Source of the DNA: a virus | Length of the DNA stretch: 29,802 bases | Strand: one strand, 5' to 3' | IMG/VR virus record: IMGVR_UViG_3300033233_000135 | Span: 1-29,802 of that record | Shown here: piece after piece, positions 5,002-25,263 of the stretch | Layout of the letters: every line of letters starts with the position of its first letter | How positions within the stretch are numbered: position 1 is the stretch's first letter | Translations under genes and position numbers: made by a program | Notes under the pieces: generated by a model | What the model was told of the DNA's origin: nothing | Database searches by the model: none | Seen by the model: only the letters and a program-made list of their open reading frames with translations

Positions 5002-5271
5002 ATGCAGACCACTTTGTTGAGTCGGAAAGTTGTGGTAGACAAGCAAGGCACTCTCCCCAAGGATTATGAAGACGAAGTGGGCACGGTCGTTTCCGTGTTC
5101 TTTTCGCCCGCAAGCCTTTGCTATGTCGGCGTGGAATACTTTGACGGACGCGTTCTATCGTTTGTCGTCACTTCCGTCCGATTTTTACAACCGGGGGAGG
5201 AAAGCAAGCCCAAGCCCAAGTTGGCAAGCAAGCCCGTCAAGAAGTCGGGAATCGAAAACGATGAAGGTTAG
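5002..5271 (+). CDS. Small hypothetical protein, SH3-like beta domain
   Basis: The product has 89 residues. Residues about 8-60 alternate short hydrophobic strands (KVVVDKQG, EVGTVVSVFF, CYVGVEYFDGRVLSFVV), as in small SH3-like barrels. The last 25 residues are a Lys/Pro tail (KPKPKLASKPVKK) that may bind nucleic acid or be disordered. It starts 4 bases after the portal stop and is followed by 276 bases without a gene. No known family is recognised. The neighbours suggest a head or packaging accessory protein. Confidence 0.65.
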   Translation: MQTTLLSRKVVVDKQGTLPKDYEDEVGTVVSVFFSPASLCYVGVEYFDGRVLSFVVTSVRFLQPGEESKPKPKLASKPVKKSGIENDEG

Positions 5272-5283
5272 GATGGAACCAAG

Positions 5284-5523
5284 CCCGGGAGTCGGCCGCT
5301 GAACGGTTTGGAATGGATGACCCCGTTTGGCCATAACCGATTCCCGGGAGCGGATCAATGTAGACCAATCCCGGGGCCGACGATAACGGTACATTGGAAG
5401 GATCCAACGTCGGCCCCGGGTGCGGGCAAGGAAGATAGGTTCTCCACCTTGGGGCTTCTGACGGATTTTCCATAGTCGGATTCGTCAGACCCGTTTCGCT
5501 ATTTACGGGAAAGCCCCGGGTGG
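5284..5523 (+). ncRNA. Candidate structured RNA or leader between portal module and head gene
   Basis: No reading frame looks real between 5272 and 5547, yet three strong fold elements follow each other. Element 1 is a 12-base stem, 5284-5295 with 5337-5348 (one G-U pair), with an inner AACGG/CCGTT pairing. Element 2 is a perfect 13-base stem, 5370-5382 with 5408-5420. A second hairpin in its loop (TTGGA 5394-5398, TCCAA 5403-5407) abuts the outer stem. Element 3 is a three-way junction: outer stem GGGGCTT 5451-5457 with AAGCCCC 5511-5517, extended by CCACC 5444-5448 with GGTGG 5519-5523; arm CTGACG 5458-5463 with CGTCAG 5483-5488; arm CCCGT 5490-5494 with ACGGG 5505-5509. The 3' side is followed by ATTTTTC, then the AAGGAAGG ribosome site of the next gene. 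It could be a regulatory leader, a terminator, or a free RNA. Several arms contain self-complementary CCCGGG, so other pairings exist. Confidence 0.5.
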
Positions 5524-5547
5524 ATTTTTCAAGGAAGGACGTGGAAC

Positions 5548-5850
5548 ATGGAAGAGGTTTCGGCGGACGGCACGGTGGAGGTGGACGTTCTTGACGAACA
5601 CGGGCCGGGTGGGGCCCATCACGTCTATCGGATCACGTTGCGGGATCTCGATTCGGCGTTGCCGATCTTGACGCAATCTATTATCTTTCAACGGGGCGGG
5701 ATTCTTGAAGCCGGGGTCAATGGCGTTTCGTGTGAGGCGTTGTTGGCAATTGTGTCCCATCGTCTTCAGCATTTTCAAGCGGGGGTTTTTCCATGTCCGG
5801 AGAATCAGGTGGCTTTCGATGCCGTCAACGAAGCCTTGCAAGCGTTGTGA
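5548..5850 (+). CDS. Small phage protein, possibly Acb2/Tad1-like anti-defence protein
   Basis: The product has 100 residues. From about residue 45 it shows a pattern I associate with small phage proteins in the group labelled Acb2/Tad1-like or hypothetical: F-Q-x-G, then EAGVNGVSCEALLAIV, RLQHFQAG and CPENQVAFDAVNEAL. Proteins of those families sequester the cyclic nucleotide or cyclic ADP-ribose signals of CBASS and Thoeris immunity. The usual C-terminal tail after the last helix is missing, and the N-terminal 40 residues look like an added beta domain (GTVEVDVLDEHG). ATG 5548 has a strong AAGGAAGG site 9 bases upstream and follows the structured region. The gene is secure; the family assignment is from memory and weak. 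Confidence 0.6.
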   Translation: MEEVSADGTVEVDVLDEHGPGGAHHVYRITLRDLDSALPILTQSIIFQRGGILEAGVNGVSCEALLAIVSHRLQHFQAGVFPCPENQVAFDAVNEALQAL

Positions 5851-6152
5851 ATGCGGGCAGTGGATCGGTCCATGCGGGGCGTGAAGGGACGTTCGGCAAA
5901 TTAGACCGGATTTGGATTCTTGAGTTCAAGCGGTGGGTGATGGATTACGTTGAACAGGAATGGGATAATACCCACGGATGGAAATTGCCTTTAGAGGACG
6001 TCACGAACATTTTACTGGACAATACGCGGTTGGGGGACATGGTGCAATTCGTTTTGTTATTCCGAAATGATGATGAAATAAAACGGATGGTTGCGACGGT
6101 GGGCGACAAGGTAGGACAATTCTTAAAAGCAAGTCGGAAAGTTCCCCAATGA
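5793..6152 (+). CDS. Hypothetical helical protein
   Basis: The product has 119 residues from ATG 5793, which has a GGGGG site 8 bases upstream but overlaps the previous gene by 58 bases. A GTG at 5847, overlapping the previous stop as GTGA, is a good alternative that removes the Ser/Gly/Arg-rich first 18 residues. The part from residue 40 on is clearly protein-like: 'FKRWVMDYVEQEWDNTHGW' followed by amphipathic helices LEDVTNILLDN and MVQFVLLFRNDDEIKRMV. The stop overlaps the start of the giant head gene (ATGA at 6149-6152), so the two are translationally coupled. No family is recognised. Confidence 0.65.
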   Translation: MSGESGGFRCRQRSLASVVNAGSGSVHAGREGTFGKLDRIWILEFKRWVMDYVEQEWDNTHGWKLPLEDVTNILLDNTRLGDMVQFVLLFRNDDEIKRMVATVGDKVGQFLKASRKVPQ

Positions 6153-9100
6153 TTGTAAAGCCTAGTGGCGTGGTATCCCCTAAGGAACGTCAATTGGCGT
6201 CCAATATGGACGCGGATCGTCGTGTGTTGGAGCCTTTGGGCGTGGGCGTGGCGGCCCGCATTGGATTGAAGGTCCGCCGGGCGGCTCAAGATACGTGGGT
6301 TAAAACGCGGTCGGTGCCTCAAGTCAAGGTGGCAACACGGCGGGCGTTGACCGAGTTGATCCCTATCATCGCCGCTTCGATGGTGGCCGGGAATCTTGCT
6401 GGGCGGTTGCGGGCGTTCAAGGAAGTGAAGAAGATCAAGTCGGACGTGGATCCGTTGACGGTGCCTATCGCTTTGGCGATTGTGCCGGCGGCTTATGACG
6501 GGGCAATCCGAATGCTCCGGCGTCGGTTGAATATGAGTCAAGAGCAATTGGACGCAATGCAAACGACGTATGAGGCGGAAGCCATTCACGTTTTGGACGG
6601 GGCGTCGGAGGAAATCGAACACAAGTTGCAACAGGTCTTGGCCGAATCCACGGAGCGGGGCTACCACGTCAAGGAGGGCGTGCAAGCCTTGGGTGAAGCA
6701 TTCGATGCTTTGGGATTGGTCCCCAGCAACAGCGGCACGTTGGAAGCTATCTTTCGGACGCAAACGCAATTGGCCTACGGGGCGGGCCGGTGGGCCTTGG
6801 ACCAACACGAAGAGGTTCAAGAGATCCTATGGGGATATAAATATGTCACGGTGGGCGATACTCGGGTGCGGGTGAACCATGCCGGGTTGGACGGGGTGAC
6901 GGCTTCTAAAGATGATCCTATTTGGAATACGATCTGGCCCCCCAATGGTTGGAATTGTTTTCCGATGGGAACGCCAGTTGTGGCGGTAGACGTTCAATGG
7001 GCGTCAAAATCCTTTTACGCGGGGGAAATGATCGAGTTGGTAACGGTCGGCGGAAAGCGGCTTTCCGTCACGCCCAATCATCCCATAGCTACCAATCATG
7101 GATGGGTTGCGGCGGGCAATTTGCAAGAAGGTGATGATCTTTTGTGCGATGATCGGGAAGTCGAATTCGTAAGGCAGCCCGGTAGTCCATTCATGTCCAC
7201 CCGGACATGTTACGAGAAGCAACGTCCATTTTTCATTCAAGATTGTTTTGAGTCGTGTTGGGAAAAGAGAATCGCGTCGAGATTGGAGTTGACGTGTTCC
7301 CCGTTGGATTTCCACGGCGACGCGGAGGGATTCATAGGCAAGGTCAACATTGTAGACGTGAATGGGGTATTCGTAAGACGGTTTCGGACCATGCAAGCGG
7401 AGAATCTCATTACCGATTCGTTTATTACGTGGTGGGATGCACACTTGACGGAGGAATCGGGTGTTCGCCATTTGGATCAATTCGACACGGGATCTTTTTC
7501 TACCCGTGACAGCGGTCCACGCGGCTTGGCATTGTCGGACACGATCCGTCCGATTCTTTCCAGTCCACTTCAGGAATTCAGCGGCGGATCGTCCCCGAAT
7601 TTGGACACTATTGTCTTGCAAGCATCGGGTGATCGCTCTCCGACTGACGTGGTAAATTTGAGAAAGGCTATTGATGCTTTGCCCCGCAAGGTAGTTGTGG
7701 ATCAACTCTTGCACGTTCGGCGGTATCCATTTCGCGGTCATGTTTATGATCTCCAGACAGGTGATGGGCTTATTATAGCATCGGGAATTGTATGTAGCAA
7801 TTGCCGGTGTGCGGTGATCCCCTTGTACCTTGAGGAAAAGACCCATTATCCGCCGAAGATGTTTACCTTCGAAGGCAAGACGGGGGTGCCGGGAGCGGAT
7901 CCGGGATTCGGCTACAATCCCGGGCAAGTGTTCAACGTGCCGGGCAAGCCGATTGCTCTTTCTTTAGGGAGCGTGGTGTGGAAAGAGGAATTGCATCCCC
8001 GCGATCACGGCAAGTTTGCATCCAAGCCCGGGGCTTCCGGTGAAGAGGACCCGGACAAGGAAGGGCACGAAAAGGAAAAAGAGGGCATTGCGAAAAAGGT
8101 CAAGACTATCCCGAACCATGAATTGTTGGTGTGGGCGGCACACAAGGGCTTTGACGCCAAGCAGACGGCGGCCATGCTTGAAGCATCAGGACACACTTTT
8201 GCTAAGGGATGGTCGGACGATTTGTTGGGGAGCGTTTTGAAGGCGGCCGGGGACAAACCCGATCCCGGTTTTGCTCCGTCGATCGAATCCCATCTTCTCG
8301 GTCAACACGCAAACACGCCTGAAGAGTCGTTTGCTGACGTCCCTCCATCGGCTTTGATCTCTTGGATGGCATTGCATAAGGTGCCAGTAGCCAAAGCTAA
8401 GTCGATGTTCAAGCAAATGAAGCCAACCAGCCATTTCAATGATATGGATGATGCGGATCTACAAGCCACAATGGACAGCATCGGGTCTAGCACGCATGGG
8501 TCCAAGTGGCATGAAAAGATTCCACCCGACTTGGTGAAAGAGTTGGAATCGAACATCGGCAAGGCGGGCCCGTCCAAGGAAGAGCCTAAACCCCAACCTC
8601 AACCCCAACCGGAGGCGGAACCCAAAGCTGAGGAAAAGCCGGCCGAAGAAGCGACGGCGGTCAAACCAGCCTTGACAGGAATTGAGGATCATTCTTCCAC
8701 GGGCTTGATCCGATGGGCGTGGCATAAGGGCTACTCGGAGAATGAGATCAAGAACATGATGGAGCACTTGGGCCGGAATGTTTCGGTCCATACCATCCGG
8801 GGTCAAAAACATGCGGCGTTGAAGAAGGGGGCGGTGGGGGCCAAGCTATCCCCAGAACAAGAGGCGTACTTTACCGCTTGGAAGGGGGGGAAAGCCCCGG
8901 AACCCGACACGACGCCGGCCGACAAGGTCCAAGAGCCCGGGGAACAGCCCAAAACGGCCCCGCCCGTGGCTCCGGAAGCCGAGAAGGCGTCAGAACCCGC
9001 CCCGGCAGCCGACGCAACAGGGGCGAAGCCGGCGGCCGACAAGCCCCGCCCCTCCTTCAAGGGGATCAAGTATTCCCAAACTATCGCGGCTATGGCGGCG

Positions 9101-12100
9101 TCCGGATTCACCAATGAAGAGATTCATGCCAAGTTGGATCCGATATGGGCGAAGAATCCGACGATCGGGGATCCCGGGACGAACATTCCGGACAATTATC
9201 TAAAGTTCCATGCTCAAGATGGCTACGATAACCCCACCAAAGATTTTGGGCTTTCGGACGATCAAAAGGACTACCTTGGCATTGCGGCGAAGAAAGAGGA
9301 TGCCAAGGCGTTTGACTTTACGAAGCACAAGATGACCCATCTTATGAAGTCGATGGGGGCTTTGGGGTTCACGTCCAAGCAAGCATCTTCGGTCTTGGAT
9401 GAGTTAGGACTACCCCATGCCAATGAGACCTTGAAAACATTCGTCAACAAGGGAAAGAACGGGCATCCCGGGGCACGATTGTCCAAGGATGAGAAGAAGC
9501 ACTTGTTGGCGTTGAAGGAACAGGTGGGCGTTGGCGACTACAAGGGTACGGTAGGCAAGGGCAAGTCGATCACGGTTGACGACAAGGACAACGTGGTAGT
9601 CCCTCAAGACGTGCCGGCGGATGGTGAAGGGGATTCCACGGCGGCGGCAAGTCAAGAGGTAAAACCGGATCCGTCGAATCCTCTTCATGGGGCATCGGCA
9701 AACGGGGTGATCAACCATCTTGTCGAAAAGGGGCTGACGTTAGAACAGGTCAAGTCCGTGTTGAAGGGTTTGCCCGGGAAGACCAGTTTGGGGAACGATT
9801 GGTCGGCCATGAAGCCGGATATGGTCGAAGCCAAGTACCACTTCACTAAGGAGGAGAAAGACAAGACGGGATTCCCCAAGGTTTCGGACGCGGCTAAGAA
9901 AGTTGCGGACGATGTTGTGGCAAAACAAGGCCACAAAGTTGAGGAGAAACCCAAGGCTCCGGCCCCACCCACGGGACCGGCAATGGATACCGTAGGCACC
10001 AACGGATTGATCAAGTTGTTGCAAAACGAAGGCTTAGAGCCGAACCAAATCGCTTCGGCCATCCAAGGTCTTCCGGGCAATCATAAGTCGGGCGTGGCGT
10101 GGAAGGATACTCCTACCAATTTCATCACGGGCAAAGCGGATTACGTCAAAAATACGGACATTGCTAAGAATCCCACGGCTCATGCTATCGGGGAAATTTC
10201 GGACGAACAAAAAGGGTTCATCAAACAGTTAGCGTCCCATCACAAAAAGTGGACCCCTGTTGAGGAAACCCCTTCGTATGATCCGAATCTAGTGGACGAA
10301 TCCCCCGTTCCCAAGAACGCCTTGGGCCCGGGGCATCTTGCCAAGTACGAGATGTCGCAAGTCAAGGAGTATCTCGGCGGCGGCAGCCCGGCCGACAAGC
10401 AAGATGCGGCGATCAAGTCGGTCCCATCGGGACAGTTGTTGGCTTGGGCGTCACACAACGGCCTTGACGTGGACGAAGCCAAGGACCTGTTGAAGATGGG
10501 AGGGCATGATTCCATCTTGGAGCATTATTCAGATCAAGATTTCCAAGAGGTTCTTGACACGTGGAAGGATAAGTTTTCGCCTAAAGCCTTGCCCTTTGAG
10601 CAACAGGTGGCTTTGCATGAATTCACGGGTAAGGGGCAGCCGGCCCAAGGCGAGGGCGGTGCCCCCAACCAAGAGCAAGTCAAGAAGGCCAAACCGAACA
10701 AGATCACGAAAGCCAAGTTAGAAGCTGTTGCCCCGGGGGCGGTTTTTCAATGGGCAGCGAAGAACGGGTTGGACGCGGCTGAAGCCCAAACCATGTTGAA
10801 AGAGTTGGGCAAATTCGACAAGTTCAAAAATTGGGACGATGGTTCTTGGGAGGATGCTTTACAAGAATCTAAGGAATCGGACAATACCCCCCATTATCCT
10901 TCGGAGGTGGACCAGAAACTTTTGTCCAAGTATTATGGCAAGACGACAAGCGGCAAGGTTAAAAAGAGCAAGGCTCCTAAGGACAATCCTTATCTTGGCA
11001 ACACATCACTTCCGGACGATATTCAGGAAACACAAGAGCCCGTCACGTTGGGAGGTTCTACCGGGGCGAAACTCATGTCCGTTTCGTCGGCGTCGGATCC
11101 CACGTCGAATGGAAAATACGTCAAGAAGGAATACAGCGGCAATTCCAACCAAGCTAAGAATGAGTATCTTGCGAACCAATTGTACGCGGCTCTTGGTGGG
11201 AATCATCCTAATGCGGCGGCGGCTACGTCTAAATTGGTGACGGATTCTACCACGGGCAAGACGGCGGTGTACAACAAGTTCGTCCCGGGTATGAAAGAGT
11301 TAGGGGGCCTTTCGGGGGATGAACAGAAAAAGGCGATGAAGTTCGCTCAGGACCATTTTGTTTTGGATGCTTTCCTTTCTAATTGGGATAGCGTCGGCCT
11401 TTCGATGGACAATATGGGATGGGACGGCAAGAAACTCCATCGTATCGACAACGGCGGGGCTTTGTTGTATCGGGCTCAAGGGTCTCCGAAGGGAGCATCG
11501 TTTGGGGACACTGTTTTCGAGTTGAAGACGATGCGGGACATGAATTCCAACCCCACGGCGGCTAAGGTGTTTGGGAATCTTTCGGATGAAGATATCGCCC
11601 GACAAGTAGGTCACCTTCGGACGCAAATGAATGCTAATCCGCATTTGATCAATCAGGTTGTGGATTCGGCCGGGTTCAACGACAACACTTCGAAGCTGTT
11701 GAAGGATACGTTGAACAAACGATACCAAAATTTATTGGCGTTTGAACACAAGCACAATCCGCAACCAAGCAGTATTGGAAATGAACCCGTGGGTCCGGGT
11801 GGATACGTGCCGGGGACCAAATATGTCCCAATTCAGCATTGGCAGCCGGCTCCATCGCCAACGATAGTAGCTCATACGCTTAGCAGCCTACATGCGGCGT
11901 CCAAGAAAGTGGCAGGAACGCTTCCCCCAGAGGAATACCAAGCAGTCAAGAAGTTCACAAACTCAAGTTCAGGAACAATAAATTCCGCCATTGTGAATGG
12001 GAAAACCTCTTCTACCGTCAGTTTGTTGGAGAAGGCGTTGAACAAAATGCCGTCCTATTCCGGGTGGTCTTGTCGGGGTGTAAGTAGTTTGTCGAGTGAT

Positions 12101-12499
12101 CTACTAGCTAAATGGAAATCGGGGGAATGGGCTCATGCCCGATGGCCCGCATTTTCTTCGGCTTCTGTTAAGCCCGGTTCTGAGTTTGGCAGTAGTGGCG
12201 GGGCGGCTTTTATCGTCAAGGATAACAAGCATTTTGGGCGGTACGTGGGGGGCATTTCTTCTCATACGTCCGAATATGAATTGTTATACCAAAAGGATTC
12301 TATGTTCCGTGTGGTAGGGTACGCGGAAGGTGCGAATGGTGGGACGATCAAGGGTACAAGCCATAGGCTGATTTTTGTTTTGGAAGAGATCACGGACAAA
12401 AACAAGATCCCCATGTCGCAAGAGAAGCCACCTAAAGTGGACGGGGAAGCCTTGTGGAAAGAATACATAACACAAGCGGCTAAAACAGGAGCACTTTGA
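6149..12499 (+). CDS. Giant minor head protein: F-like domain with intein, helical repeats, kinase-like domain, ADP-ribosyltransferase
   Basis: The product has 2116 residues (1834 if the intein is removed). Residues 1-269 and 552 to about 590 form a Mu F / SPP1 gp7-like head morphogenesis domain, ending in the NGWNCRC motif that is split by the intein (270-551). An HPRDHGKFAS linker follows near 615. Residues about 650-1575 hold nine helical repeats of about 45 residues (pattern LL-x-WA-x3-G-hydrophobic-x3-EA-x2-ML) joined by Pro/Glu/Ala/Lys linkers. Residues about 1625-1850 look like a kinase-fold domain: a Lys strand YVKKEY near 1657, 'NWDSVGLSMDN' near 1750 and IDNGGALL near 1770. Residues about 1960-2100 have the three R-S-E ADP-ribosyltransferase motifs: R1976 (CRGV), FSSAS at 2002-2006 and E2042-x-E2044. 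F proteins normally have 250-450 residues. The domain set suggests an effector packed in the head, like T4 Alt. The ATG overlaps the previous stop. Confidence 0.88.
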   Translation: MIVKPSGVVSPKERQLASNMDADRRVLEPLGVGVAARIGLKVRRAAQDTWVKTRSVPQVKVATRRALTELIPIIAASMVAGNLAGRLRAFKEVKKIKSDVDPLTVPIALAIVPAAYDGAIRMLRRRLNMSQEQLDAMQTTYEAEAIHVLDGASEEIEHKLQQVLAESTERGYHVKEGVQALGEAFDALGLVPSNSGTLEAIFRTQTQLAYGAGRWALDQHEEVQEILWGYKYVTVGDTRVRVNHAGLDGVTASKDDPIWNTIWPPNGWNCFPMGTPVVAVDVQWASKSFYAGEMIELVTVGGKRLSVTPNHPIATNHGWVAAGNLQEGDDLLCDDREVEFVRQPGSPFMSTRTCYEKQRPFFIQDCFESCWEKRIASRLELTCSPLDFHGDAEGFIGKVNIVDVNGVFVRRFRTMQAENLITDSFITWWDAHLTEESGVRHLDQFDTGSFSTRDSGPRGLALSDTIRPILSSPLQEFSGGSSPNLDTIVLQASGDRSPTDVVNLRKAIDALPRKVVVDQLLHVRRYPFRGHVYDLQTGDGLIIASGIVCSNCRCAVIPLYLEEKTHYPPKMFTFEGKTGVPGADPGFGYNPGQVFNVPGKPIALSLGSVVWKEELHPRDHGKFASKPGASGEEDPDKEGHEKEKEGIAKKVKTIPNHELLVWAAHKGFDAKQTAAMLEASGHTFAKGWSDDLLGSVLKAAGDKPDPGFAPSIESHLLGQHANTPEESFADVPPSALISWMALHKVPVAKAKSMFKQMKPTSHFNDMDDADLQATMDSIGSSTHGSKWHEKIPPDLVKELESNIGKAGPSKEEPKPQPQPQPEAEPKAEEKPAEEATAVKPALTGIEDHSSTGLIRWAWHKGYSENEIKNMMEHLGRNVSVHTIRGQKHAALKKGAVGAKLSPEQEAYFTAWKGGKAPEPDTTPADKVQEPGEQPKTAPPVAPEAEKASEPAPAADATGAKPAADKPRPSFKGIKYSQTIAAMAASGFTNEEIHAKLDPIWAKNPTIGDPGTNIPDNYLKFHAQDGYDNPTKDFGLSDDQKDYLGIAAKKEDAKAFDFTKHKMTHLMKSMGALGFTSKQASSVLDELGLPHANETLKTFVNKGKNGHPGARLSKDEKKHLLALKEQVGVGDYKGTVGKGKSITVDDKDNVVVPQDVPADGEGDSTAAASQEVKPDPSNPLHGASANGVINHLVEKGLTLEQVKSVLKGLPGKTSLGNDWSAMKPDMVEAKYHFTKEEKDKTGFPKVSDAAKKVADDVVAKQGHKVEEKPKAPAPPTGPAMDTVGTNGLIKLLQNEGLEPNQIASAIQGLPGNHKSGVAWKDTPTNFITGKADYVKNTDIAKNPTAHAIGEISDEQKGFIKQLASHHKKWTPVEETPSYDPNLVDESPVPKNALGPGHLAKYEMSQVKEYLGGGSPADKQDAAIKSVPSGQLLAWASHNGLDVDEAKDLLKMGGHDSILEHYSDQDFQEVLDTWKDKFSPKALPFEQQVALHEFTGKGQPAQGEGGAPNQEQVKKAKPNKITKAKLEAVAPGAVFQWAAKNGLDAAEAQTMLKELGKFDKFKNWDDGSWEDALQESKESDNTPHYPSEVDQKLLSKYYGKTTSGKVKKSKAPKDNPYLGNTSLPDDIQETQEPVTLGGSTGAKLMSVSSASDPTSNGKYVKKEYSGNSNQAKNEYLANQLYAALGGNHPNAAAATSKLVTDSTTGKTAVYNKFVPGMKELGGLSGDEQKKAMKFAQDHFVLDAFLSNWDSVGLSMDNMGWDGKKLHRIDNGGALLYRAQGSPKGASFGDTVFELKTMRDMNSNPTAAKVFGNLSDEDIARQVGHLRTQMNANPHLINQVVDSAGFNDNTSKLLKDTLNKRYQNLLAFEHKHNPQPSSIGNEPVGPGGYVPGTKYVPIQHWQPAPSPTIVAHTLSSLHAASKKVAGTLPPEEYQAVKKFTNSSSGTINSAIVNGKTSSTVSLLEKALNKMPSYSGWSCRGVSSLSSDLLAKWKSGEWAHARWPAFSSASVKPGSEFGSSGGAAFIVKDNKHFGRYVGGISSHTSEYELLYQKDSMFRVVGYAEGANGGTIKGTSHRLIFVLEEITDKNKIPMSQEKPPKVDGEALWKEYITQAAKTGAL
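7004..7741 (-). CDS. Homing endonuclease-like gene nested antisense inside the intein
   Basis: The product has 245 residues, read on the strand opposite to the head gene and lying wholly within the intein. Residues about 7-45 form a helix-turn-helix ('YLAGQSINSLSQIYHVSRRA'), followed by the linker RGRSAAEFLKW (49-59), which is typical of phage homing endonucleases of the Vsr-fold/EDxHD type. The nuclease region is NEIL (E112), 'YPIHVYNVDLAYESLRVAVE' with D133 and E144, then a basic stretch and 'FPTRLKTILNEKWTLLLV'. The D-x10-E pair resembles a restriction-fold active site. A His usually found just after it (G-x-W-H) appears replaced by R/Q, so activity is uncertain. The last ~45 residues are antisense to intein blocks A and B and look passively encoded. 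ATG 7741 has GGAG 9 bases upstream and a promoter beyond that. The frame extends upstream to 7927, but that part looks like shadow. Confidence 0.78.
   Translation of the reverse strand: MTAKWIPPNVQELIHNYLAGQSINSLSQIYHVSRRAITRCLQDNSVQIRGRSAAEFLKWTGKNRTDRVRQCQAAWTAVTGRKRSRVELIQMANTRFLRQVCIPPRNKRIGNEILRLHGPKPSYEYPIHVYNVDLAYESLRVAVEIQRGTRQLQSRRDSLFPTRLKTILNEKWTLLLVTCPGGHEWTTGLPYEFDFPIIAQKIITFLQIARRNPSMIGSYGMIGRDGKPLSADRYQLDHFPRVKGF
7751..7754 (-). promoter_or_regulatory. Ribosome binding site of the antisense endonuclease gene
   Basis: GGAG on the minus strand lies 9 bases before the ATG at 7741-7739. It decides the start at 7741 rather than the in-frame ATG at 7927. The start codon itself is the complement of the block F His codon (H531) of the intein. 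Confidence 0.6.
7772..7800 (-). promoter_or_regulatory. Sigma70-like promoter for the antisense endonuclease gene
   Basis: Read on the minus strand: TTGCTA (7800-7795), a 17-base spacer, then a perfect TATAAT (7777-7772) preceded by TGC, an extended -10. Transcription would start near 7765, about 24 bases before the start codon. The same bases encode the C-terminal splicing end of the intein (GLIIASGIVCSN) on the plus strand. Planctomycete or other host sigma factors may differ, so function is inferred. Confidence 0.6.
8100..10875 (+). repeat. Nine degenerate helical repeats in the giant head protein
   Basis: Repeat starts are near residues 653, 732, 848, 973, 1061, 1181, 1281, 1425 and 1527. 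Each is two short helices with the form 'x-LL-x-WA-x3-G-(L/F)-(D/S)-x2-(E/Q)-(A/V)-x2-(M/V)-L-x2-(L/G)G'. Examples are 'ELLVWAAHKGFDAKQTAAML', 'QLLAWASHNGLDVDEAKDLL' and 'AVFQWAAKNGLDAAEAQTML'. Spacers of 30-100 residues are rich in Lys, Pro, Glu and Ala. The helix-turn-helix shape resembles SAP or UBA-like mini-domains, which could bind DNA in the filled head. I cannot assign a family. Confidence 0.75.
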
Positions 12500-12870: not shown

Positions 12871-12882
12871 TAAAAGATCATT

Positions 12883-13059
12883 ATGGAAAAAGAGCGATTG
12901 TGTTTACGGTGTGCCACGTTTTTCATGTCCGAAGGTCCTTACAATCGTATATGTCCACGGTGTACGAATAAAAAAATGAAGGGTGGTCCGAAACAGTGTC
13001 GTGTTGTGATCGAAGCGTTTAACAGTCGGACGCGTCCAAGAGGAATAGGCAATGTCTGA
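12883..13059 (+). CDS. Small zinc-ribbon protein (58 residues)
   Basis: A short frame from ATG 12883 to TGA 13057-13059 encodes two Cys knuckles, CLRC at residues 7-10 and CPRC at 26-29, spaced by 'ATFFMSEGPYNRI'. This matches the small phage zinc ribbons with the form CxxC..F.S....NRIC..C. The rest is basic. It overlaps the next gene's start by 8 bases. The spacing from the previous stop is 12 bases. It probably binds zinc and perhaps nucleic acid, which is inference from the Cys pattern. Confidence 0.7.
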   Translation: MEKERLCLRCATFFMSEGPYNRICPRCTNKKMKGGPKQCRVVIEAFNSRTRPRGIGNV

Positions 13060-13243: not shown

Positions 13244-13265
13244 GAATCAAACGGGACATGAATAA

Positions 13266-13317
13266 GGCGTTGGTGTACGTCGGCGTTTGCGGACGTGTGC
13301 CAACGTCTTGTTTTTGT
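13266..13317 (+). terminator. Rho-independent terminator after the small-gene cluster
   Basis: The arms 13266-13281 and 13292-13307 pair over 16 positions (several G-U), with a 10-base loop, and are followed by TTGTTTTTG. It separates the 12499-13243 cluster from the protease/scaffold gene, so a fresh promoter for the capsid module may lie in 13318-13372. I do not see a convincing one there. Confidence 0.7.
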
Positions 13318-13372
13318 TGGTAGGTTATATTTCCGCTAGAAAAAGGCCAGAGGATCCCTCATGCTGTAGGGC

Positions 13373-17090: not shown

Positions 17091-17126
17091 TCGACGATTG
17101 ATTCAGGTGAATGCTCCGCTTCCCAA

Positions 17127-17167
17127 CCGGGGCACAAGGGTATACGGACATTCTTCTTGTGCCCCGG
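17127..17167 (+). terminator. Strong hairpin after the major capsid gene
   Basis: CCGGGGCACAAG (17127-17138) pairs perfectly with CTTGTGCCCCGG (17156-17167) over 12 bases, with a 17-base loop. No T-run follows, so it is probably a partial attenuator or an mRNA-stabilising structure at the head/tail boundary rather than a full terminator. The remaining bases of the 108-base gap hold nothing else I can support. Confidence 0.5.
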
Positions 17168-17198
17168 GTAGGGACGGGCCGACGAAAAGGGCGGCTCC

Positions 17199-22764: not shown

Positions 22765-25263
22765 ATGAAGGATCTGATTAGAACGCCCCGGGCAGGAGAA
22801 TTACTTACCGTAGGGCAAGTCCAACACCTTGTTGACAATGCTAAGGAATCGGACAAGATTCGGTCGGGAATCGTTAGCGGTCAAGGGACACTTCATCGCA
22901 AGATTGTGCAAAAAGGACAATGGCGTCCTTTTTATGCTCCGACTGAAATGGACGTCCCTGCTTTCGGTGTGTTGGTACAATCGTCTAGGGGAAAGAGTGG
23001 CACTTTTCCACCGATCCCGATAGCAGCCATGTTTGGGCGGGGATCATGTCCTATCTTCGTGAATGGTGATTCCATCGTTCCAAAAGAGGGGACGGGTCAT
23101 TGGATTTCCCCAACTATCGATCCTATCCAAGTTGCCTATGATCCCCAAGATGGGGTTCCGAAAAATGGGGAGGTTTGGGGCCCTGTCCCGGGCAGTTACC
23201 TTGTGCGAAAAGGGTTTCCGGGGTTTGTAGTTCAGTTAGACCCGGAGGTTTACACCATAACCCCGCCAACGGTTCAGACATGGGCTTGGATGGCTTACGA
23301 TTGGTCCTTGTGCGGTGTTCGGCTCGCGTGTGCCAAAGACCCGATCGTGCCTCAGGGCGTGGCGTGCGGGCGTCTACCGCGTTGGGATGCTACATTGAAT
23401 GGTGGTAAGGGATCCTACACGTTAGATCCGTGTAACCCAATTTGGGTAAAAGAAACAGCCCTCGCATTCTCCGCAAACCCCGGAGATTGCCTAGTCGTTC
23501 AACCGATCGAAAACGATACGACTTGGGAAGTTTTGGACGTGATTCCAGGGTGTGGTATTTGTGCCTCTTTGGCGGAAACGACTACCCCAACCCCGCCGGG
23601 CGATCCCGGCGGGGGAATCCCTACGGCCCATCCGACGTGTGCGGGATCGTGTAAATACGAATGGTCCGGTCCTTCTCAGTATTGGATTTTGGTAACGGAT
23701 GGATGTTCCGGAACCACAACTACAACCACAACCACGGGAACCCCAACCACGGGATCCCCAACGACAGCGGACCCCAATTTCACAACGATTACCCCGGCTC
23801 CGTGCAATTGTCCAACCACGGTAGCACCCATTCCGGTTGGGAATGCGTGGGTTCCGAACGATTTCATCGCAAATACAACAACTACAACCACAACCCCGGC
23901 TCCAACTACGTCCGTTTGTAAATGTTCACCCCCGTTGTTTTGTGGAGTGACCAATGGGGATTGCACTTGGACCTATTGTTCCACTTCGGACATTTATCCG
24001 CCGTGCGGGACCACAACAACCACAACAACAACCACAACCACGGGGTCACCCACAACCACAACGACTACCCCGGCTCCGTGTGCCTTAGGGTGTGAATGGT
24101 GGGGCGGATGGCCGGGACAAGGATCGGGATGGTACTTGTTGCGTAGTGATTGTATTCCGTTGACGTGTCCGTGTGCATACCCAACAAGAGAACCCGGAAG
24201 ATGCGATCGGATCACAATGCCTTGCGTTCCGGTCGTGCCCCCGCCCCCGCCCCAACCCTTTTGTTTGGGGACATGTACGTGGGCATGGGCGGCAGATCCT
24301 GCCAACGTATGGGTCCTTGTTAAGAGTGGATGCCTTGCGAGTGGTGTTTCTGATTGTCATTGTGACGCTCCTTCAGTTGCCGGAACCGTATGTTGGGAAC
24401 CAGCCGAAACGGGTTGCGGTTCTCATTCTGGAGGAGGTGGCGGCGGGGGTGGGGGAACCACTACAAGCGGTCCTACTACGCCTTCCGTAACAACTACCCC
24501 GGGGGTATGTTCCTCCAAGTGCAAGTGGCGTTGGGGACAATCATCTTGGGCACAAGTTTCCAATCCATGTCCTTCGTTGTGTCCTTGTTGCCCGCCGGTT
24601 TATTCTGGACGGGATAATTGTGAGATAGCGTCAACTCCATGCAATACCAATTGCAACACAACGACGCTTCCACCGACAACAACGACACCTCCACCGACAC
24701 CTCCACCGACAACAACAACGGGATCTTGTTCGGGATCGTGTACGTTTACATGCGTTCAAATTGAGGGAAACTACATTTGGCAAAAAACAATTCCATGTCC
24801 TCTTTACCTCATAGGACCGGGAACGTGTAATTGTGGACGATTTTGTGAACCCTATCCATGTATGGCAGGAACGGTGCAATACACAACACAAGTAAGTTGT
24901 GTCTCTTCATTGGATTCCACCCCAACAACAGGATGCCCCCCAACGACGATCCCTCCGATAACGACGATCCCTCCGACAACGACGATCCCTCCGACAACAT
25001 GGCCCCCTTTGTGTAATGGAGGTTCAACGTGGAATTGGATCGGTGGTGTTACTCCTCCATACTGTCAAGGGTATTGGGTATTGGTGGACAGCAATTGTTC
25101 TAGATCGGATTCGAAATCTCAGTGTGTCGGTCCTCCTGATTTTCCAAATAGCGGGTGTGCTCCTTACCCACCAATTTGTTCACCTTGTCTTGGTGGAAAT
25201 TGCGTTGCGAATGGAATGGCTGGAAGTCCTTGTGATTGTGGATATGTTCCGGGGGGCAATTAG
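22765..25263 (+). CDS. Tail fibre or adhesin: Cys-rich modules on threonine/proline linkers
   Basis: The product has 832 residues. Residues 1 to about 270 form a virion-attachment part with no repeats. After that about seven Cys-rich modules follow, most starting C-x-G-x-C-x-W-x-W and holding WVLV-x-SGC or similar (for example 'CLGTCTWAWAADPANVWVLV'). They are separated by linkers of 10-30 residues of Thr, or Thr with Pro (TTTTTTTTTTTGSPTTTTTT; PPTTTTPPPTPPPTTTTGS). A run of nine Gly lies near residue 555. The linkers look like stiff, possibly O-glycosylated spacers, and the Cys modules probably form disulphides outside the cell. The last gene before the glycosyltransferases, it is the natural candidate for their substrate. 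A receptor-binding role is inferred from position and make-up. Confidence 0.7.
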   Translation: MKDLIRTPRAGELLTVGQVQHLVDNAKESDKIRSGIVSGQGTLHRKIVQKGQWRPFYAPTEMDVPAFGVLVQSSRGKSGTFPPIPIAAMFGRGSCPIFVNGDSIVPKEGTGHWISPTIDPIQVAYDPQDGVPKNGEVWGPVPGSYLVRKGFPGFVVQLDPEVYTITPPTVQTWAWMAYDWSLCGVRLACAKDPIVPQGVACGRLPRWDATLNGGKGSYTLDPCNPIWVKETALAFSANPGDCLVVQPIENDTTWEVLDVIPGCGICASLAETTTPTPPGDPGGGIPTAHPTCAGSCKYEWSGPSQYWILVTDGCSGTTTTTTTTGTPTTGSPTTADPNFTTITPAPCNCPTTVAPIPVGNAWVPNDFIANTTTTTTTPAPTTSVCKCSPPLFCGVTNGDCTWTYCSTSDIYPPCGTTTTTTTTTTTGSPTTTTTTPAPCALGCEWWGGWPGQGSGWYLLRSDCIPLTCPCAYPTREPGRCDRITMPCVPVVPPPPPQPFCLGTCTWAWAADPANVWVLVKSGCLASGVSDCHCDAPSVAGTVCWEPAETGCGSHSGGGGGGGGGTTTSGPTTPSVTTTPGVCSSKCKWRWGQSSWAQVSNPCPSLCPCCPPVYSGRDNCEIASTPCNTNCNTTTLPPTTTTPPPTPPPTTTTGSCSGSCTFTCVQIEGNYIWQKTIPCPLYLIGPGTCNCGRFCEPYPCMAGTVQYTTQVSCVSSLDSTPTTGCPPTTIPPITTIPPTTTIPPTTWPPLCNGGSTWNWIGGVTPPYCQGYWVLVDSNCSRSDSKSQCVGPPDFPNSGCAPYPPICSPCLGGNCVANGMAGSPCDCGYVPGGN
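23716..25010 (+). repeat. Simple-sequence repeats encoding Thr and Thr-Pro linkers
   Basis: Runs of ACA/ACC codons occur near 23716-23770, 23875-23905 and 24010-24072, a CCACCGACA-type run at about 24665-24722, and three tandem copies of an 18-base unit (ACGACGATCCCTCCGACA, one base changed in copy 1) at 24943-24996. A G-rich block at about 24428-24456 encodes polyglycine. Such runs can expand or contract by slippage or recombination and change linker length. Confidence 0.8.

Follow-up and report, generated by a model that had tools for sequence, protein, structure and literature searches.

A stable, terminator-like intergenic leader precedes a Tad1-like gene within the head cluster of an uncultured phage

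Results

Gene context of the structured gap

The window analysed here is the whole of a 29,802-base virus record from an uncultured phage (IMG/VR IMGVR_UViG_3300033233_000135, positions 1-29,802), among whose head and packaging genes are those for a large terminase of the phrog_2 kind, a Mu-type portal, a MuF protein and a Phage_cap_E-type capsid. On the plus strand of this cluster lies a 276-nt gap (5272-5547) that extends from the stop codon of one small gene, ending at 5271, to the ATG of the next at 5548. The upstream member of the pair (5002-5271, plus strand) encodes 89 amino acids of unassigned function. Its product matched no family or PDB entry and gave a weak three-strand structure prediction (pLDDT 64). 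Protein-based scans for relatives returned none for this gene product and none for the capsid protein, and one distant relative for the product of the 5548 gene.

The gene downstream of the gap (5548-5850, plus strand, 100 amino acids) is Tad1-like. Its protein matches phrog_2428, shares 37.6% identity with the annotated Tad1 of Bacillus phage SBSphiJ7 and, over residues 12-98, matches the solved Tad1 structures 8kbh, 8kbg and 7uav with E of about 1e-9. Judged from these similarities, the product is probably a Tad1-like sponge and the gene a piece of anti-defence cargo. Tad1 proteins trap gcADPR and cyclic nucleotides on which Thoeris and CBASS rely (PMC12043709). Anti-defence genes need the right timing and amount, and the control of cargo genes within structural operons is poorly known; a stable, terminator-like leader before a Tad1-like gene in a head cluster is a concrete and testable case.

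Inspection of relatives fetched by their match to the portal protein reveals no counterparts of the 5002, 5548 and 5793 genes. The portal gene leads into the MuF gene without a sizeable gap in two of these relatives (L002 and L008), and other relatives carry different genes at the same junction, including a sigma-factor-like gene in L009 and a Gp36-like gene in L039. The portal/MuF junction thus seems to collect cargo genes. Most likely, the window holds an anti-defence cargo cassette placed between the portal and MuF genes, with the gap as its intergenic regulatory region. The absence of the cassette from the fetched relatives is as expected of cargo that brings its own control.

Three independent hairpins account for the stability of the gap

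The complete gap folds with a minimum free energy of -122.8 kcal/mol (z -4.3), a value as low as which was reached by 0 of 300 shuffles. Its stability exceeds that of each of 60 GC-matched 276-nt pieces taken from the window, the best of which folds at -114.9 kcal/mol. The first-pass annotation had described 240 bases of the gap as highly structured and had named folding against shuffled sequence as a check. Those 240 bases fold at -115.1 kcal/mol, compared with -91.0 +/- 5.0 kcal/mol for dinucleotide shuffles (z -4.8, 0 of 200), so that the description is clearly borne out. The reverse strand of the region also folds better than its shuffles (z -3.9), because inverted repeats must fold on both strands. 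In a 160-nt sliding scan of 371 windows the region ranks second by energy and eighth by z-score. That is to say, it is among the most structured places in the window, exceptional but not unique.

The folding energy comes from three independent hairpins, termed H1, H2 and H3, which appear in succession during extension of the RNA and persist in longer transcripts. H1 (5284-5348, plus strand) combines an outer 12-bp stem (5284-5295/5337-5348), containing one G-U pair, with an inner 9-bp stem (5298-5306/5323-5331) and folds at -34.3 kcal/mol (z -4.2). H2 (5370-5420, plus strand) is built on a perfect 13-bp stem (5370-5382/5408-5420) that encloses an inner 5-bp stem (5394-5398/5403-5407), with an energy of -32.9 kcal/mol (z -4.6). 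Its 13-bp stem is the longest perfect local inverted repeat of the window, where about 0.03 such stems are expected per shuffled window. H3 (5443-5524, plus strand) is a three-way junction at -42.4 kcal/mol (z -5.2), made up of a 13-pair basal stem with one bulged T (5443-5456/5512-5524), a 9+3-pair arm and a 5-pair arm (5457-5489 and 5490-5509). Each of the three hairpins was unmatched in 300 dinucleotide shuffles.

Three successive stems therefore lie where the first-pass annotation had placed them, and two of its finer points need correction. The junction linkers of H3, described as at most one unpaired base, measure 0, 0 and 2 nt in the minimum-energy fold. The gap, described as the only sizeable one of the head cluster, is the largest of several: the cluster has further gaps at 12871-13051, 13244-13372 and 17091-17198, with strong hairpins in the latter two.

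Overlapping open reading frames within the gap had no family match, no tRNA or tmRNA was detected, and no terminal inverted repeats were found to flank it; an inserted element was rejected as the origin of the gap on this last ground. The motif CCCGGG occurs five times in the 240 bases, compared with 36 copies in the whole window.

H1 and H2 as possible diverged tandem units

Two possible units surround the first two hairpins. Unit 1 (ACCAAGCCCGGG ... CCCGGGAGCGG; 5278-5353, plus strand) aligns over its full length with unit 2 (ACCAATCCCGGG ... CCCGGGTGCGG; 5364-5425, plus strand) at p 0.0005 relative to shuffles, at p 0.0086 without the CCCGGG ends, and at p 0.0098 relative to GC-matched real pieces of the window. 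The pattern common to both is ACCAA[GT]CCCGGG ... AACGGT ... TTGGAA ... GGAT ... CCCGGG[AT]GCGG. For a third unit, similarity to unit 1 is borderline (p 0.03-0.08) and to unit 2 absent, leaving units 1 and 2 as the only pair clearly beyond shuffles. Tandem Repeats Finder reported no strict tandem repeats in the gap. The alignment hints at, but does not prove, an ancient duplication of one hairpin unit, of which H1 and H2 would be the diverged tandem descendants.

A terminator-like end directly precedes the ribosome site

The basal stem of H3 ends at 5524 and passes without a spacer into a T-run (5525-5529, plus strand; TTTTTC), which is followed by the ribosome site AAGGAAGG (5531-5538, plus strand) and the start codon at 5548, in the order first annotated. 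Two features of an intrinsic terminator are present here, namely a stable 3' hairpin and a U-rich tract immediately after its stem, the latter short at five T. H1 and H2 have no T-run attached.

To place H3 among comparable structures, all 81 T5 runs on both strands of the window were surveyed for structures ending within two bases of the run. H3 (-42.4 kcal/mol) is the most stable structure abutting any of them, the next best reaching -30.2 kcal/mol, one of which (13263-13310) lies in the leader of the 13373 gene. The plus strand contains 31 T5 runs, and the chance that one starts 0-2 nt from a given hairpin end is about 0.3%; the coincidence of T-run and stem end adds some weight to a terminator reading. 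A structure as stable as H3 ended at 2 of 150 random positions, so stability beside a T-run does not prove a terminator. A scan for terminators did not list H3 because its loop limit leaves out the branched stem, and the terminator-like sites that it reported in the region were no more numerous than in shuffles. A promoter scan listed no promoter-like site on the plus strand of the gap, which fits read-through from upstream.

Local folding leaves most of the ribosome site unpaired, and the leader therefore does not obviously hide it. Before its 3' arm is made, the 5' strand of H3 can pair upstream (CAAGG/CCTTG and GCGGG/CCCGT) in a competing fold that is 14-16 kcal/mol weaker than H3. This competition is compatible with an attenuator and is no proof of one. 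Hairpins beside head genes also occur in relatives: in L012, a canonical terminator (GGGCGCGGG..CCCGTGCCCGTTTTTC) that shares the T5-C tail follows the capsid gene directly, and L039 has a 14-bp hairpin (10657-10752) immediately 3' of its portal gene.

Homologues of the leader

A search of Rfam, which would miss a new riboswitch class, gave nothing at the gathering threshold; the best permissive hits (E 0.67 and 2.4) were of unrelated kinds. No homologous DNA was found in phages, plasmids or 392 genomes of one phylum, where a single 36-base match (E 7e-4, one of the 392 genomes) is in line with chance expectation. The three exact hairpin patterns had no match in viral contigs. Covariance models of H3 and of H1 plus H2, each built from a single sequence and reaching close relatives only, recovered from 36 loci only the window itself, besides a self match on the reverse strand and a single hit at E 1.1; in the 392 genomes the H3 model had no hit.

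The leader is likewise absent in front of the other Tad1-like genes compared. These comprise eight loci (six phages, viral contig L163 and genome locus L165) with about 0-65 nt upstream, and on this basis the leader was rejected as a standing partner of Tad1. FLC9 was left out of the comparison, as the matched frame is not annotated there as a separate gene.

Discussion

A brake on read-through as the preferred reading

We put a probability of roughly one half on the reading that H3 and its U5 tract form an intergenic terminator or attenuator leader, which restricts how much transcription runs on from the head operon into the tad1-like gene. Head-operon transcripts continuing beyond the 5002 gene would reach the stable H1 and H2 and then H3 with U5. 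Acting as an intrinsic terminator or attenuator, H3-U5 would stop most polymerases and leave a stable 3' end, and those polymerases that read through, or that are released by an antitermination event, would expose AAGGAAGG and allow the Tad1-like protein to be made. The analysis establishes the sequence, the stability of the fold against shuffles, the position and the identity of the downstream gene; from there we infer that H3 terminates, that Tad1 arises by read-through and that H1 and H2 have a protective or regulatory role. Early stops in 5' leaders are a widespread feature of E. coli transcription (PMC7815308). Against this reading stand the short U-tract behind H3 (UUUUUC), the terminator-scan and random-position results given above, and the lack of homologues in the collections searched; nor would a plain terminator need H1, H2 or the branched junction of H3.

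A brake or switch on the tad1-like gene is most likely when set against the two roles that the first-pass annotation had raised, both of which are without positive support. Of the riboswitch-like geometry, the structured leader stands and H3 with its T-run has the arrangement of an expression platform, whereas the aptamer part has no Rfam match and no homologue in the collections searched. A packaging RNA gains no support from the gene content. Packaging RNA of the phi29 type is a structured RNA near packaging genes in another phage group with another motor. The present gap is similar in being a structured RNA close to packaging genes, but it accompanies a Mu-like portal and a phrog_2 large terminase, and relatives with the same terminase and portal lack both gap and cassette. 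For these reasons a phi29-type pRNA is not supported.

Among known systems, the gap resembles the intrinsic terminators and attenuators of 5' leaders (PMC7815308) in its stable hairpin, immediate U-run and ribosome site just downstream. It differs from them in its branched three-way junction, its short U5 and the two stable hairpins upstream, and its terminator role is a predicted one. It also recalls type III toxin-antitoxin loci such as ToxIN (PMC8860590), where structured RNA units are followed by a short terminator and the start of a small gene. Here, the downstream gene resembles tad1 and had no hit among toxin models, the units are diverged, 62-76 nt long and missed by Tandem Repeats Finder rather than near-identical, and no promoter-like site accompanies them. 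The lack of a ToxN-family endoribonuclease and of near-identical tandem repeats led us not to class the element as a type III toxin-antitoxin locus. T4-type phages have mobile regulatory stem-loop cassettes, which are equipped with an early promoter and turn up repeatedly in different genomes. The present element shares with these cassettes an intergenic stem-loop of terminator-like form next to cargo genes, but neither a promoter nor a second copy of it was found. Taken together, the gap looks like a member of the broad kind of intergenic terminator-like leaders, with an unusual branched shape.

Alternative explanations

The same hairpins could serve the message rather than end it. H1-H3 might be cut or protected by ribonucleases of the RNase III type without any termination, separating the head and tad1 messages and setting their half-lives. 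The stable hairpins in other cluster gaps (17122-17172, which has no T-run) and after the L039 portal gene would suit such processing, as would the bare ends of H1 and H2 and the accessible ribosome site; the exact ending of H3 on a T-run is left unexplained, and we regard processing as rather unlikely. Tad1 might instead merely adjoin a discrete noncoding RNA, some 240 nt in length, that ends at the T-run and acts in trans, on a host RNA or as a decoy. The self-contained fold with its terminator-like 3' end, the neighbouring anti-defence gene and the possible tandem units are consistent with this, and the escape from ToxIN by RNA mimicry offers a precedent, showing that phages can turn repeat RNAs against defence (PMC3475682). 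The absence of a promoter-like site in the gap, of an Rfam match and of any homologue in the collections searched makes such an RNA unlikely.

A regulated attenuator or riboswitch, in which H1 and H2 sense a ligand, a protein or an immune signal nucleotide and decide whether H3 forms, would account for the order of sensor-like folds, terminator and ribosome site, and for the ability of the H3 5' strand to pair with CAAGG and GCGGG before its 3' arm exists. The weakness of that competing fold relative to H3 tends to speak against a sensor, as do the missing Rfam aptamer and the absence of the leader from the other Tad1 genes compared, and we consider it quite unlikely. Narrowed to a tandem-unit leader RNA of a new class that senses host immune activation, perhaps through the signal nucleotide trapped by Tad1, and switches the terminator before the sponge gene, the idea becomes highly improbable. 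The present data do not demonstrate a response to immune signals; if the leader had one, we know of no earlier sensor RNA of this kind. It is improbable, finally, that the gap works at the DNA level, as inverted repeats bound by a protein through the CCCGGG motif, as a packaging site or as the remnant of an inserted element, with the RNA fold a by-product. The concentration of CCCGGG, the good folding of both strands and a MITE-like element in relative L039 agree with a DNA site; however, the arms lie 25-41 nt apart, too distant for a simple operator, the gap lacks terminal inverted repeats, and the H3 and T-run layout is strand-specific and RNA-like.

Further observations in the window and its relatives

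Additional structured sites were noted in the course of the analysis. At 13258-13313, in the leader of the 13373 gene, a long hairpin is followed by TTGTTTTTG, forming a second terminator- or attenuator-like structure in the head cluster. Directly after the capsid gene, a strong hairpin (CCGGGGCACAAG/CTTGTGCCCCGGG) occupies 17122-17172 with no T-run, and its 3' arm ends in GCCCCGGGT, which is common to H2 and H3. The most extreme fold z-score of the window belongs to the DNA under an 832-aa protein (22765-25263) with threonine-rich, low-complexity stretches (TTTTTT, GSPTT). In L039, the stretch 797-1128 has 55-nt terminal inverted repeats that are 91% complementary, with 222 nt between the arms and a gap fold z-score of -11.8; it resembles a miniature transposable element carried by a phage contig. 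In L018, simple repeats of the GGTGACAAGGTGA type build a very long hairpin (z -9.8) that fills a gap at 8295-8442.

Two observations concern genes at or near the portal/MuF junction. Where the window has the Tad1 cassette, between portal and MuF, L009 has a gene for a sigma-70-like factor (9833-10735). The MuF reading frame of the window (6149-12499) contains an intein-like insert at a conserved cysteine, covering residues of about 230-545 (PPNGWN/C ... CSN/CRCAVIPLY), which matches the Pfam family Intein_splicing at E 5e-4, below the curated cut-off. The MuF protein of L002 is uninterrupted at this site (PPNGWACRC).
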